A stretch of DNA of 64,000 bases, taken from positions 310,001-374,000 of the forward strand of contig KV419407.1 of NCBI GenBank assembly GCA_001630475.1, written 5' to 3'. This document shows, one piece after another, positions 31,466 through 37,593 of this stretch (position 1 is the stretch's first letter; each line of letters starts with the position of its first letter). The translations under genes and the position numbers were made by a program. Origin of the DNA: Sistotremastrum niveocremeum HHB9708. Lineage: Eukaryota > Basidiomycota > Agaricomycetes > Sistotremastrales > Sistotremastraceae. The notes under the pieces are model-generated. The model worked only from the letters and a program-made list of their open reading frames with translations. It was not told the DNA's origin and ran no database searches.

Positions 31466-32424
31466 GGCAAACGTGATGGATGGTTAGAGGGCGGGAAAGA
31501 GAGAGGACAAGTTGCGATAGGAGCTGCGTTCGCTCGCTCGGCACGATAAGGAAAAAGAGGCATGGATTGCCGCGTGGACAGGTTGTTCTTTCTCCCATCG
31601 TCCTGGTCGACTCTGGCAGTGAGCTCCTGGTCAGTAGGCTATTTAAACGAGTAACTCGGAAGGTTTCAGAGGCAGGCACGGGCGCTTTGTCCAGTGGCGA
31701 ACAACACCAAGCTTCCCTGTCATTGCGTCAAGTCGTCGAGAATCACACCTTCTCGGCAATGAAGACCGATATCTCCGCGCGCCGCGGGTCCCTTATGTCC
31801 GGCTCCCTCGTTCCTGAAATTTGCAACTTGAGCTGCAGGTGTAGCCAGTAATCACCGACAATCAGAGGCTCCTGGCGATTTGACAATGTTCTGATACTCA
31901 AAATGACGTGGTCACGGGACCTTTTCTATAGAGAGACTTGCTGCGTTCCGACCGTCGCTCGACACAAGCTGCTTCTTCTCCGTCTTGCAGACAACGAACG
32001 AGCTTTGTGTCTCCGAGAAATATATTTGGAATTCATTCGGATCTGTTTCTTGCAATGGCTCGCCTTCTTGAATGACTGGCCGAAGCGGCGAAGCTTCAAA
32101 CGCAAGCTACAGCGCATCCTTCCCGAGATTGAGGCTACCTTAATCCGTCCTGTTACCTCGGCCCCAGAGCGTTCGGCTTCCACTGCATCTTGACGATGAG
32201 CTACATTGGTTAGCTGCCAAGCCGACGTGATGCCGATTTATCTCATTCCTCCCGACCATTCCTCAATGCTGCTACCTTTTCATGTTGAACCGACATGGAG
32301 CCGTCCATCGCGGGCTCAGCAAGCCAAAGTCATCGACCACCCTGTATAAATAGCCATTCTCAATGGCTGATTATACTCTCATAGACCAATTGCCTTGGTT
32401 TACTCAACTCGAAGACTCTTCACT
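31466..32424. promoter_or_regulatory. Long divergent promoter region of the cellulase gene
   Basis: A 959-base gap, the second longest in the window, between the aminotransferase start (minus) and the cellulase start (plus). Only random-looking frames are present. It probably holds the regulated cellulase promoter. I looked for carbon-repressor sites (SYGGRG) and saw no convincing cluster by eye. Confidence 0.5.
32345..32352 (+). promoter_or_regulatory. TATA box of the cellulase gene
   Basis: TATAAATA, 73 bases before the cellulase ATG at 32425, in a good position for a strong inducible promoter. Confidence 0.65.
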
Positions 32425-35400
32425 ATGAAGACAACTTTGTTTCTGGCAGCGGCCTTGGCAGCTGCTCCGGCCTTCGCTCAAGTCCAAGAGTGGGGCCAGT
32501 GTGGTGGCATGTGCGTGTTCAGAGTCTAAATTTATGACCCAGTCTTAATTTCGCGTTCTCAAATATAGCCAGTGGACGTGAGTCATTGTCTGCCTCTTCC
32601 ATATTCACGATACCGATTGCCGGGACAGCGGACAGACGTCTTGTGCCTCCGGCCTCGTTTGCACAGAGCTGAACCCATACTATTAGTGAGTATGCTATGC
32701 ATAGAGCGTTCTCCTGGATTCTTTGCTGATGTACTGAAAAGTCAATGCCTGCCGCCCTCGTCAACCTCGACGACCACTTCGAGCACCACTAAGTCTACTA
32801 CCACGACTACCTCGAGCAGCACCAAGTCTACTACAACTACCACCACGACTACCACTACTTCAAGCACCACCAAGTCTACGACCACTACCACTTCCTCCAC
32901 AACCACCTCGTCGACTTCTACCGGTTCCTCGACTCCTACGCCATGCGTTGGGCGTGTGAAGTTCGCTGGCGTTAGTGAGTAATGGCGCTGTAGAGTGCTA
33001 TAATTGTCTTACATGTTCCACCCTTTCAGACATTGCTGGATTCGATTTCGGGTGTGATACCAATGTAAGTCTTGTATTCTCTTCTGCCGACCTGATCTGA
33101 TGCCTACATTCCAGGGAAACTGCAACGTCACCCAAGCATACCCGCCCATCACTCAAACCTACGGCCCTGATGGTATTGGCCAGATGAAGCACTTCGTGAC
33201 CGACGACGGCTTCAACATGTTCCGTCTCCCAGTTGGATGGCAGTGAGTCGGGGTCGTATTCCAACAAACCATGATTGATCTCGTTCTTATATAGATACTT
33301 GACCAACGGCGTCGCCGCCGGCGTAAGCAATTTGAATATCTGCCCTGATGTTGCTAAAGTCGCTGTTTTCAGCCGCTCTACCAACCCCTTTTCTCCAACT
33401 ACGACATCCTGGTCCAGGGATGCCTTGCCACTGGCGCGTACTGCATTATCGGTTAGTAGATATGCATCGGCTTCATCACTGATATCTCACCAACATCAAC
33501 CAGATATCCACAAGTTCGTATTGATTCACTCGTATCCACCTTCCCGAGCGCTCATATAAGTACAGCTACGCCCGTTTCAATGGTGCTATCGTTGGCCAAG
33601 GTGGCCCTCCCAGCTCGGCTTTGGCTAGTGTTTGGGGCGACCTTGCGGCTTATTACGCCAACCAGCCCAGAATTGTTTTCGGAACGTGAGCCACCTTCTG
33701 TCACACGCCGTTTGAGTTCCGTCTAATTCATTTGTAGAATGAACGAGCCCCATGATGGTACAGTCCTCTCAATGCCCCAAATTACCCCTCTTGAAGCGTG
33801 TTCTCTGCAGTTCCCAGCATTACCACCTGGGCACAGACCGTACAGGCTGTCGTCACTGCCATCCGTCAAGCCGGTGCTACTTCCCAGATGATTCTGTTGC
33901 CTGGAAATGACTGGACTTCCGCCGCTGCTTACATCTCTGACGGTAGTGCTGCCGCTCTTGGTGCCGTCACTAACCCCGATGGTAAGTTTTTTTATACGCA
34001 AATGGATCATTTATCTCAGTTCTTCTAGGCTCTACCACGAACTTGATCTTCGAAGTGCACAAGTACAGCGATTCCGACAACAGTGGCACCCACACAAACT
34101 GTGTTACAAAGTGAGAGTTTTACTCGTCCTCGCGAATACAGTTTCTAAAGCCCTCAATAGCAACATTGCTGATGCATTCCAACCTCTTGCTACATATGCT
34201 CGGGCAAATAACCGTCTCGTGCTCAACACCGAGTTCGGTGGTGGCAACGGCACCGATTGTATCACCGATATCGGCCAACAGCTCGCTTTCCTCAATGCCA
34301 ACTCTGATGGTGCGATATTTTGGTCTTGACGCGACTTCTTCTTATATGAATATAGTCTTCCTCGGCTGGACTGGTTGGTCCGCTGGATCTTTCGATGGTA
34401 AATCAACTTCTTGTTCCTCAGTCATCTCAAGTAACCTGTGCACGTAGCCACCTACAACCTTGGATTGACCCCCGTCAACCACGGCGGTGTTTGGACCGAC
34501 ACGCCTCTGGTCGCATCGGCACTTATTCCGGCATTCCAAGGCGTCCCTACCCCCTCTTGCAGTGCCACATGGACTACTACGTCTACTTCGACCACGACCA
34601 CAACGACCTCCACGTCGAAGTCCACGACGACCACGACGACGAGTTCTACTACTACAACTACCAGCAGCACCACCAAGACAACCACGACCACGACCACCTC
34701 CAAGACTGGTACTCCCACCATCAGCGGCAATCCTTTCGTTGGCAAGACCGCTCTTCCCAACCCTTACTACACTGCTGAGGTAAGAGAAATCCGAGTTTAG
34801 AGTGCGTATTCTCACGGGCTTCTTAGATTCAAGCCGCCATTCCTTTGATTACCGACGCTCACACTGCTGCCGCTGCCGCCGTGGTTGAGAATATTCCTAC
34901 CTTCTTCTGGTTGGATACCGTCTCCAAAGTTTCCGTAAGCATATTTCACTTATGCGTTTGGACTAGGGTTGTTGACGGATTTCTCAGACTCTCCAAAGCA
35001 TCCTGGCCGCTGCCGCCGCTTCTGGAAGCAACAACTTGGTTGAAATTGTCGTTTACGATCTGCCTAATCGTGATTGCCATGCCAAGGCCTCAAACGGAGA
35101 ATTCACGATCGCAAACAACGGTGTTGCCAACTATGAGAACTACATCGACCAGATTGTCTCAGTCATTGCTCGTGAGTCTTCTTTCTACCGCATCCGTTTT
35201 ACCAGTCTAATATTCAATTGCCAGAATACCCCACCGTATCTGTCGTTGCTGTTATTGAGCCCGATTCGCTTGCGAACTTGGTCACCAACTTGAGCGACCC
35301 CAACTGCTCAGCTGCTCAGACTGCCTACAAGACCTGCATCGTCTACGCCATCCAACGTCTCAGCACTGTCGGTGTTGCCATGTACCTTGATGCTGGTCAC

Positions 35401-35988
35401 GCCGGATGGCTCGGATGGCCCGCCAATCTTCAACCGGCTGCCACCTTGTTCGGTCAGATCTACCAGTCCGCAGGTTCTCCCAACACAGTCCGTGGACTCG
35501 CCACTAGTAAGTCTCTAACATGTATATTGCGACCTTTTACTTATTCTTCATCAGACGTTGCCAACTACAACTCGTACACCACCAACTCTCCCGATCCTTG
35601 CACTCAGGGCGACCCCAACTACGATGAGCTCCTCTATATCACCGCCCTGGCCCCTCTCCTCAGCTCCTCAGGATTCCCTGCCCATTTCATTGTCGACCAA
35701 GGGCGCTCTGGACAGCAGAACCTCCGTCAGCAATGGGGTGACTGGTGCAACATCAAAGGTGCTGGCTTCGGTATCCGCCCCACCACCGTCACCAACTCTT
35801 CATACGTTGACTCCATCGTCTGGGTCAAGCCTGGAGGTGAATGTGACGGAACTTCCAACAGCTCTGCTCCCCGCTACGACTCCACTTGCTCTCTTTCTGA
35901 TGCCGACCAGCCCGCGCCCCAGGCTGGCCAATGGTTCCAGGAATACTTCGTGACCTTGGTCGCTAAAGCCAACCCTCCTTTGATTTAG
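32425..35988 (+). CDS. Fused cellulase: CBM1-GH5-linker-GH6
   Basis: One reading frame of 862 residues over 20 exons encodes two complete cellulase modules. Order: signal peptide (MKTTLFLAAALAAAPAFA); CBM1 (WGQCGGIQWTGQTSCASG..YYQC, four Cys) to about residue 52; Thr/Ser linker; GH5 endoglucanase about 120-446 with acid/base Glu in TMNEPHD and nucleophile Glu in LNTEFGGGN; second Thr/Ser/Lys linker about 457-505; GH6 cellobiohydrolase-like module about 507-862 with the general acid Asp in YDLPNRDCHAKASNGE and the Asp of WVKPGGECDG. Exon 16 (34448-34779) holds the GH5 end, the whole second linker and the GH6 beginning with no stop or splice between them. Exons 2, 9 and 11 are 9, 10 and 20 bases. 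The GH6 part has no signal peptide or CBM1 of its own. Both active sites look intact, so the protein is predicted to have both activities. Confidence 0.93.
32755..32943 (+). repeat. Low-complexity ACC/ACT linker repeat 1
   Basis: Imperfect Thr/Ser codon repeat (accacc, actact, aagtctact) encoding the O-glycosylated linker between CBM1 and GH5. It occurs within exon 4 of the cellulase gene. Confidence 0.85.
34571..34723 (+). repeat. Low-complexity ACC/ACG linker repeat 2
   Basis: A second imperfect Thr/Ser/Lys codon repeat in exon 16 of the cellulase gene, encoding the linker between the GH5 and GH6 modules. Its composition is close to linker 1, including repeated S-K-S-T-T units. Confidence 0.85.
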
Positions 35989-36269: not shown

Positions 36270-37163
36270 ATGAATCCTGGCAACTCTACCCCTCCAAGTG
36301 AATCACACGAACCGGCCTTTGAGAGATGGCGACACAGGCTGGCTTGGACCACAGGTCTTGGACTCACATCGGAAGAGTCATTACGACGCGACCAGGAAAG
36401 ACAGGCTGAATTAGCACCAGCCCAGTTGGCCCAATGCCGGCAGTGGAAGGCAGATCTCTTGTCCTCCAGCGAGTCCTTGCAGTTGGGCATCACTCACAAC
36501 TCGCTAGCTAATGTGCTGATAAGGTCCCAAAATTACATTCATGCTGAAGCACCTAGAGCTTCTTGGTACACCCATAGGGCCAGAATTTCTGCATTGCACA
36601 CCCTGCCAGCCTACGCACGCTGGAGGGACAGACCCGGATACAGGCAACATTGTGCTATGCCAGGGTCGATTCATGAGCAAGAAGCACATGGAGGACACTA
36701 TTACCCATGAACTCTTGCATCTCTATGACCAAAGCCGATTTTCGGTAGACTGGAGTAATCTTCGACATCACGCGTGCAGCGAGGTGAGGCTGCTTTTCCG
36801 CGTTTCCAGCTTTGACGTCGGAATTGATTTGTTAACAGGTTCGTGCGTCCAACTTGAGTGGAGATTGTCGCTGGGGCCGGGAAGTTCGACGGCTATTCTT
36901 CTCGTTCTCAAAGCAGCACCAGGTAGGCTCAATTCGCAAATGTTTCTGATTGCCATGTCCAATTCGATATCACAGGCTTGCGTGCGACGCCGTGCAGTGG
37001 CTTCGGTCCAGGCCAATCCTTCCTGTCCTGACCGCGCCGCAGCCGAACGCGCGGTGAATGAGGTCTTTGACAGCTGTTTCAAGGACACCAGGCCCTTTGA
37101 CGAGGTAACGCGTTTCTCCAAGCCACATCACACGACCACTCATAAAGTCTTCAGATTTATTAA
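36270..37163 (+). CDS. ATP23: Mitochondrial inner-membrane protease ATP23
   Basis: Intermembrane-space metalloprotease and chaperone that in yeast matures Atp6 and aids ATP synthase assembly. Zinc motif HExxH is present in DTITHELLHLYD. Other family segments: FMLKHLELLG, FLHCTPCQ, GNIVLCQGRF, WSNLRHHACSEVRASNLSGD, and the Cys-containing end CPDRAAAERAVNEVFDSCFKD. A GC-AG intron (36469-36523, GCGAGT..GATAAG) is needed to join LLSSS to PKITFMLKH; later introns are ordinary. The last exon adds only Ile-Tyr before TAA. Start ATG 36270 (MNPGNSTPPSESHE). Confidence 0.9.
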
Positions 37164-37593
37164 TTGCTACCCCCTTAGTACATGTAGAACGTTATGCTGG
37201 TTCATGTCGCACGATGGCGCACTTTCAGTATTTATATCGGGAAGCTTCGGTGCCGAATATGGAGAATTCTATTCTTATTCTCAGTGAAATAAGGATTTCA
37301 GTTGATGCAACTGCGCTGTCCTTGTCAAGAAATCGTCAAATAGCCGCACTGCGGTAACGCAGCACTGCATCTCAGGATCACTGAAGTCTGTCTGTTATTA
37401 TGCAAGATGCGCAAGCAGCCAGGGGGAGGTTGCAACGGGGTTATTCAAAGTCCGACAAGAGATTCATTCTTAGACGTTCGGTTGCTGTCATGTTTGAATT
37501 CGCTTCTCCGTCTTTCCCATCATCCTGTTCCCCCAAAAAATTAGTTTTATCAAAACTACCCTGTCCTTTCAACCTTAGGCTTAATCTCTCATA
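37164..37593. other. Intergenic region, nothing recognised
   Basis: 430 bases between ATP23 and the KRE9-like gene, both plus strand. It should contain the promoter of the latter. Short frames here show no domain. Confidence 0.4.

Follow-up and report, generated by a model that had tools for sequence, protein, structure and literature searches.

Positions 32425-35988 of the plus strand of the window (the whole stretch of 64,000 nucleotides analysed, from contig KV419407.1 of Sistotremastrum niveocremeum HHB9708) hold a coding region whose 20 exons, assembled in a hand-built model, amount to 2589 nt, TAG included, and encode a protein of 862 amino acids and 90.3 kDa. Exons were placed by hand at chosen GT..AG sites and the model was then checked by script; the 862-aa frame contains one stop codon, the terminal one. 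It begins and ends where the 862-residue frame proposed in a sequence-only reading of this DNA does, and it has the same length, the same 20 exons in number and the same exon 16. The features of the locus are as follows.

32345-32350 (+): TATAAA, consensus match only, 80 bases upstream of the ATG
32425-35988 (+): complete coding region in 20 exons, with stop TAG after 862 aa (gene model)
32425-32478 (+): putative signal peptide, MKTTLFLAAALAAAPAFA, cleavage site placed by eye
32488-32748 (+): CBM1, aa 22-53, exons 1-4, four Cys (26, 37, 43, 53) (Pfam)
32749-32943 (+): linker 1, Thr/Ser/Lys-rich (composition)
32944-34536 (+): GH5 endoglucanase module, aa 119-446, exons 4-16 (Pfam, alignment to solved enzymes)
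33745-33747 (+): Glu265 of GH5, NEP motif
34231-34233 (+): Glu377 of GH5, TEFGGGN motif
34448-34779 (+): exon 16, running in one frame from the end of GH5 through linker 2 to the start of GH6
34537-34728 (+): GH5 tail (Cys454), then linker 2, rich in Thr, Ser and Lys; aa 447-510, without Met
34729-35985 (+): GH6 cellobiohydrolase-type module, aa 511-862, exons 16-20 (Pfam, alignment)
34780-34826 (+): intron 16, length 47 nt (not divisible by 3); retention brings an in-frame stop
35072-35074 (+): Asp592 of GH6, RDC motif
35263-35265 (+): Asp638 of GH6, VIEPDS motif
35845-35847 (+): Asp816 of GH6, ECDG motif

Three Pfam domains, all well over their curated cut-offs, follow one another in the order CBM_1 (aa 22-50, 9.1e-14), Cellulase, corresponding to GH5 (aa 155-412, 1.7e-57), and Glyco_hydro_6 (aa 531-827, 8.4e-118). 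The CBM1 combines its Pfam match with four cysteines. The two linkers resemble each other: linker 1 contains 36 Thr and 20 Ser in 63 residues (aa 55-117), linker 2 contains 35 Thr and 11 Ser in 61 residues (aa 456-516).

All 19 introns have GT..AG borders, the sites having been chosen so, and are 46-58 nt long (mean 51.3). The branch-point motif CTRAY is matched in 7 of the 19 and in intron 16 not at all; with such a share of matches the motif lends the model little support, and we count it against both the model and the explanation favoured below. Splices in the catalytic parts were tested by alignment with solved enzymes, in which a wrong splice would appear as a gap or a stretch of mismatches, and they are supported by the near gap-free alignments to 5d8w and 5xcy. 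Splices within the CBM1 are based on the Pfam CBM_1 match. Three exons are tiny, with 9 nt (32569-32577), 10 nt (33504-33513) and 20 nt (33738-33757). The latter two lie in GH5 and are backed by the gap-free 5d8w alignment; the 9-nt exon, in the CBM1, has the CBM_1 match as its sole backing. The TATAAA element is the one match to TATAAA, TATATA or TATAAT within 120 bases upstream of the ATG.

The window is intron-rich, with a G+C content of 0.498. A Pfam match at E 0.001 was obtained for 14 of the 20 ORFs scanned around the gene: ankyrin repeat, RhoGEF, FYVE, COX5A, RhoGAP and Utp14 (two ORFs), an aminotransferase (weak, below the curated cut-off), Peptidase_M76, a ubiquitin-family ORF, GNAT acetyltransferase, the complex-I 49 kDa subunit, an ARMT1-like domain and nucleotidyl transferase. 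These neighbours, together with the CBM1 and the short introns, indicate that the window is fungal. The Peptidase_M76 stretch (36523-37284, +), which we take to be of Atp23 type, lies beyond the 3' end of the fusion gene, in the same orientation. Scans of the window against Rfam and for tRNA genes gave no match. A second copy of GH5, GH6 or CBM1 was sought in the window and rejected: the strongest tblastn match outside the gene is an 11-residue piece of CBM1 (E 0.13), and the remaining outside matches of the three modules have E values of 1.4 or worse.

The GH5 module is identical to the solved endoglucanase 5d8w in 204 of 324 positions (63%, no gaps) and to 3qr3 in 210 of 324 (65%, five gap positions); it may belong to GH5 subfamily 5, as T. 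reesei Cel5A. Both catalytic glutamates that the sequence-only reading had pointed out in NEP and TEFGGGN are in place, as Glu265 and Glu377, within a protein region matched by Pfam Cellulase. The latter motif reads TETGGGN in the solved relatives, so that Phe replaces the second Thr. Two cysteines common to both solved relatives (in MCQQ, and in VSSCL of 3qr3 near the C-terminus) are missing; the corresponding sites are 34273-34275 and 34519-34521, and Cys119 (32944-32946) and Cys454 (34558-34560) flank the barrel. As the two cysteines are lost together and the two others stand on either side of the barrel, a moved disulfide is favoured over decay, and a predicted Cys119-Cys454 bond could possibly staple both ends of GH5 at the linkers.

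The closest solved relative of the GH6 module is 5xcy, presumably from the basidiomycete Phanerochaete chrysosporium, with 237 of 355 residues identical (67%) and one four-residue gap. Besides the Pfam match, the module retains three active-site aspartates: the pair previously singled out in RDC and ECDG is found as Asp592 and Asp816, and Asp638 of VIEPDS, which had not been named before, is present too; we take it to be the general-acid position, equivalent to Asp221 of T. reesei Cel6A. The segments around RDC-ASNGEF and VKPGGECDGTSNSS..QPAP, which we assume to be the GH6 tunnel loops, both align to 5xcy without gaps. Because both are kept, the module fits a cellobiohydrolase-type enzyme rather than a loop-deleted endoglucanase. 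It reads PNRDC, compared with PDRDC in the solved relatives; PNRDC also occurs in bacterial GH6 (locus L002, and loci L004 and L005 of the scan described below).

The claim that exon 16 joins GH5 to GH6 without a stop, splice or start between them withstood inspection of frame, methionines and hidden introns. Exon 16 runs in a single frame from the GH5 C-terminus through the Thr/Ser linker into NPFVGKTALPNPYYTAE and contains no stop. Residues 296-676 include no Met, so the modelled exons offer no in-frame start for a second secreted protein; the lack of both Met and stop rules out two separate genes as far as the modelled exons are concerned. Retention of intron 16 would add six codons and lead to a stop at the seventh. 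Exon 16 was also scanned for hidden introns of 40-90 nt, with the modelled introns, scored leave-one-out, as a yardstick. The 23 candidates reach a top score of 3.5, compared with 2.0-15.7 for the 19 modelled introns, and this top candidate, 89 nt long, shifts the frame. An in-frame candidate of 54 nt (34487-34540) has the score of modelled intron 11, 2.0; splicing it out would cost a part of GH5 that is aligned with 5d8w and would not touch the joint. A hidden intron at the joint was rejected accordingly. Synonymous codon usage does not differ between the GH5 and GH6 halves (chi2 37.5, 32 df, p 0.23), and their GC3 values are 0.607 and 0.616, which is consistent with long residence of both in one genome.

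The best reading of the sequence is thus that a single gene encodes CBM1-GH5-GH6, as had been suggested; one signal peptide is visible by eye, and catalytic acids are present in both modules. Very probably, the gene is real and gives rise to one secreted fungal cellulase composed of signal peptide, CBM1, linker, GH5, linker and GH6.

Three other explanations have to be weighed against this secreted fusion cellulase. Linkers of fungal cellulases are subject to proteolysis, and cellulase linkers are usually shielded by O-glycans. The fusion might be transcribed as one unit while its secreted chain is cut in the Thr/Ser linker, yielding separate GH5 and GH6 enzymes, the latter without CBM1. Linker 2 is long, contains Lys and is presumably disordered, which speaks for such a cut; set against this shielding and the difficulty of squaring a CBM1-less product of a split fusion with its retention in two species, as tabulated in PMC5428031, we consider cleavage unlikely. 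That one module is catalytically dead, so that a single activity remains and the other half serves as a bulky cellulose binder, is very improbable. Departures close to the active sites (TEFGGGN for TETGGGN, PNRDC for PDRDC) and the loss of one GH5 Cys pair could be taken as its signs, but every named catalytic acid is kept, PNRDC is shared with the bacterial enzymes mentioned above, and the joint cysteine loss along with the presence of Cys119 and Cys454 would fit the predicted moved disulfide rather than decay.

The joint itself could be an artefact, two neighbouring genes having been merged by misassembly or collapse within the linker. Low-complexity Thr/Ser repeats such as both linkers are risky for assemblers; still, linker 2 (34565-34720) has no exact copy elsewhere in the window longer than 15 nt on the plus strand and 13 nt on the minus strand, and with copies this short in the window a misjoin to the other linker is unlikely. 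Furthermore, the GH5 C-terminus and the GH6 N-terminus align to their solved relatives right up to the joint in one frame, and the identical architecture is listed for two genomes in PMC5428031. Taken together, we regard an assembly artefact as extremely unlikely.

If the secreted fusion cellulase is accepted, its most likely mode of action is the following. The CBM1 would hold the chain on cellulose, the open-cleft GH5 would cut internally and create new chain ends, and the tethered tunnel-type GH6 would work from non-reducing ends and release cellobiose. The Thr/Ser linkers would act as O-glycosylated flexible spacers; we infer from the sequence that both modules are active and that the linkers keep them at a useful distance. 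The gene likely goes back to an ancestor of Sistotremastraceae in which a CBM1-linker-GH5 gene fused with a CBM1-linker-GH6 gene lying downstream of it, an event in which the stop of GH5 and the signal peptide and CBM1 of GH6 would have been lost. A benefit from synergy is not to be assumed, since engineered bifunctional constructs of two Thermobifida fusca cellulases were somewhat inferior to the free enzymes (PMC3502487). The tether may pay off through fixed stoichiometry or localisation and not through speed, or it may bring no advantage at all.

In textbooks, aerobic fungi degrade cellulose with free enzymes. A chain with a fixed one-to-one ratio of endo- and exo-acting modules breaks this rule, and the gene offers a way to study whether a tether between endoglucanase and cellobiohydrolase is a benefit, a burden or neutral. 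A bolder proposal, which we put forward as doubtful though more than idle, is that Sistotremastraceae have evolved, independently of bacteria, an obligate single-chain endo/exo cellulase with a shared CBM1, whose GH6 uses the ends made by its own GH5. If true, it would constitute a second mode of cellulose degradation in aerobic fungi and a natural test of intramolecular synergy.

GH5 and GH6 also meet on single chains in bacteria. A scan of bacterial genome contigs by GH6 alignment yielded at least 537 confirmed relatives, of which the best 80 were kept. GH5 is present as well in 2 of these 80 ORFs (L045 and L066) and GH9 in one (L018), in a sample rich in Paenibacillus and actinobacteria that gives no frequency estimate for bacteria at large. 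The ORF of Teredinibacter sp. ISS155 (L045:3060-7832) encodes CBM2-GH5-GH6-CBM6-GH5, 1591 aa with three catalytic modules; that of Catellatospora (L066) encodes GH6, GH5, fn3 repeats and CBM3. In phmmer searches the GH5 of L066 strongly matches the first GH5 of L045, and the window GH5 has no match at E 0.01 in the best 80 ORFs, these two included. Because of this lack of a match, the fungal fusion is best seen as independent of these bacterial chains. The window GH6 is 43-44% identical to those of a Sorangium MAG (L004:4602-6083) and a deltaproteobacterial MAG (L005:4788-6068), and 32-36% to the other 78. The alignments to the former two span 359-362 columns, compared with 416-429 for the other matches listed, and their GH6 modules seem to be without the long bacterial insertions. 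A recent bacterial origin of the window GH6 was rejected, with 67% identity to 5xcy as opposed to at most 43-44% among these best 80 of at least 537 loci. The sample also includes a Paenibacillaceae MAG ORF of 1831 aa (L018:4878-10370) that carries GH6, fn3, CBM3 and GH9, and a Herpetosiphon ORF of 1135 aa (L044:4308-7712) that carries a CBM2 and two GH6 stretches. Viral contigs contained four stretches with the GH5 pattern, none of them a relative.

Several bacterial chains of this kind are described in the literature, and two natural ones, TERTU_2895 and TwCel5-6, speak for the favoured explanation. TERTU_2895 of T. turnerae has the layout GH5-CBM5-CBM10-GH6; mass spectrometry detected it in spent medium with two of three substrates, sucrose and CMC, and did not find it with the third, SigmaCell (PMC2699552), which we count against the favoured explanation. 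CelAB is referred to as a multifunctional cellulase that has been characterised (PMC2699552, PMC12055684). TwCel5-6 of T. waterburyi, of 1103 aa, consists of GH5, three CBM10 and GH6; attempts to produce it at full length failed (PMC10071621), and this too is counted against that explanation. Like the window gene, Teredinibacter CelAB/TERTU_2895 and TwCel5-6 carry GH5 ahead of GH6 on one secreted chain and would combine endo and exo action. They differ in being bacterial and in having CBM5/CBM10 and Ser linkers between the modules, where the window gene has one N-terminal CBM1; by Pfam, no CBM5 or CBM10 but only a linker separates its GH5 from GH6. RcCelC is built as GH6-GH5-CBM3 (PMC7586223); like L045 and L066, it shares with the window gene the presence of GH5 and GH6 on one chain, and the module orders differ. 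A wider mining study records six cases of GH6 and GH5 combined in a single protein of the M5nr database (PMC6626019).

The two modules have their fungal counterparts among stand-alone enzymes, the CBM1-GH5 endoglucanase (EG-II, 3qr3) and the CBM1-GH6 cellobiohydrolase (5xcy, T. reesei CBH II type), and are 63-67% identical to solved catalytic modules. Normally, fungal GH5 and GH6 cellulases come from separate genes, and each has a signal peptide and a CBM1 of its own. Fungal GH6 cellobiohydrolases are described with an N-terminal CBM1 and linker (PMC7586223). The sequence-only reading did not know the fused layout as a standard fungal one, and rightly so: CBM1-GH5-GH6 is rare in fungi, accounting for 2 of 9,003 proteins in 218 fungal genomes (PMC5428031). 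The architecture is, however, already in print and not new, a fact of which that reading was unaware. Among the matches listed in CC-licensed PMC literature, no functional study of the Sistotremastrum fusion was found, and among the matching papers the term hetero-cellulase appears only in the 2017 survey (PMC5428031).

In that survey, the architecture is reported for both Sistotremastrum genomes included, with one protein each, Sisni1|485627 and Sissu1|1057361 (PMC5428031). NCBI taxonomy places both species in Sistotremastraceae, Sistotremastrales, with S. niveocremeum listed as Sertulicium. Table 1 of the same survey also contains CBM1-2(GH5), an architecture of two proteins exemplified by S. 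niveocremeum, and for this reason fusion of CBM1-linker cellulase genes may happen readily in this lineage. The two CBM1-GH5-GH6 proteins are known to us from a table entry and one sentence, to which our analysis adds exon-level detail, and they are likened to the window gene by their architecture; judging from its sequence and that entry, the window gene may be the reported Sistotremastrum gene itself. Pfam finds the order CBM1-GH5-GH6 in its single fungal protein, and among known systems it is these Sistotremastrum hetero-cellulases (PMC5428031) that have modules and order identical to those of the window gene, likewise in a fungus.
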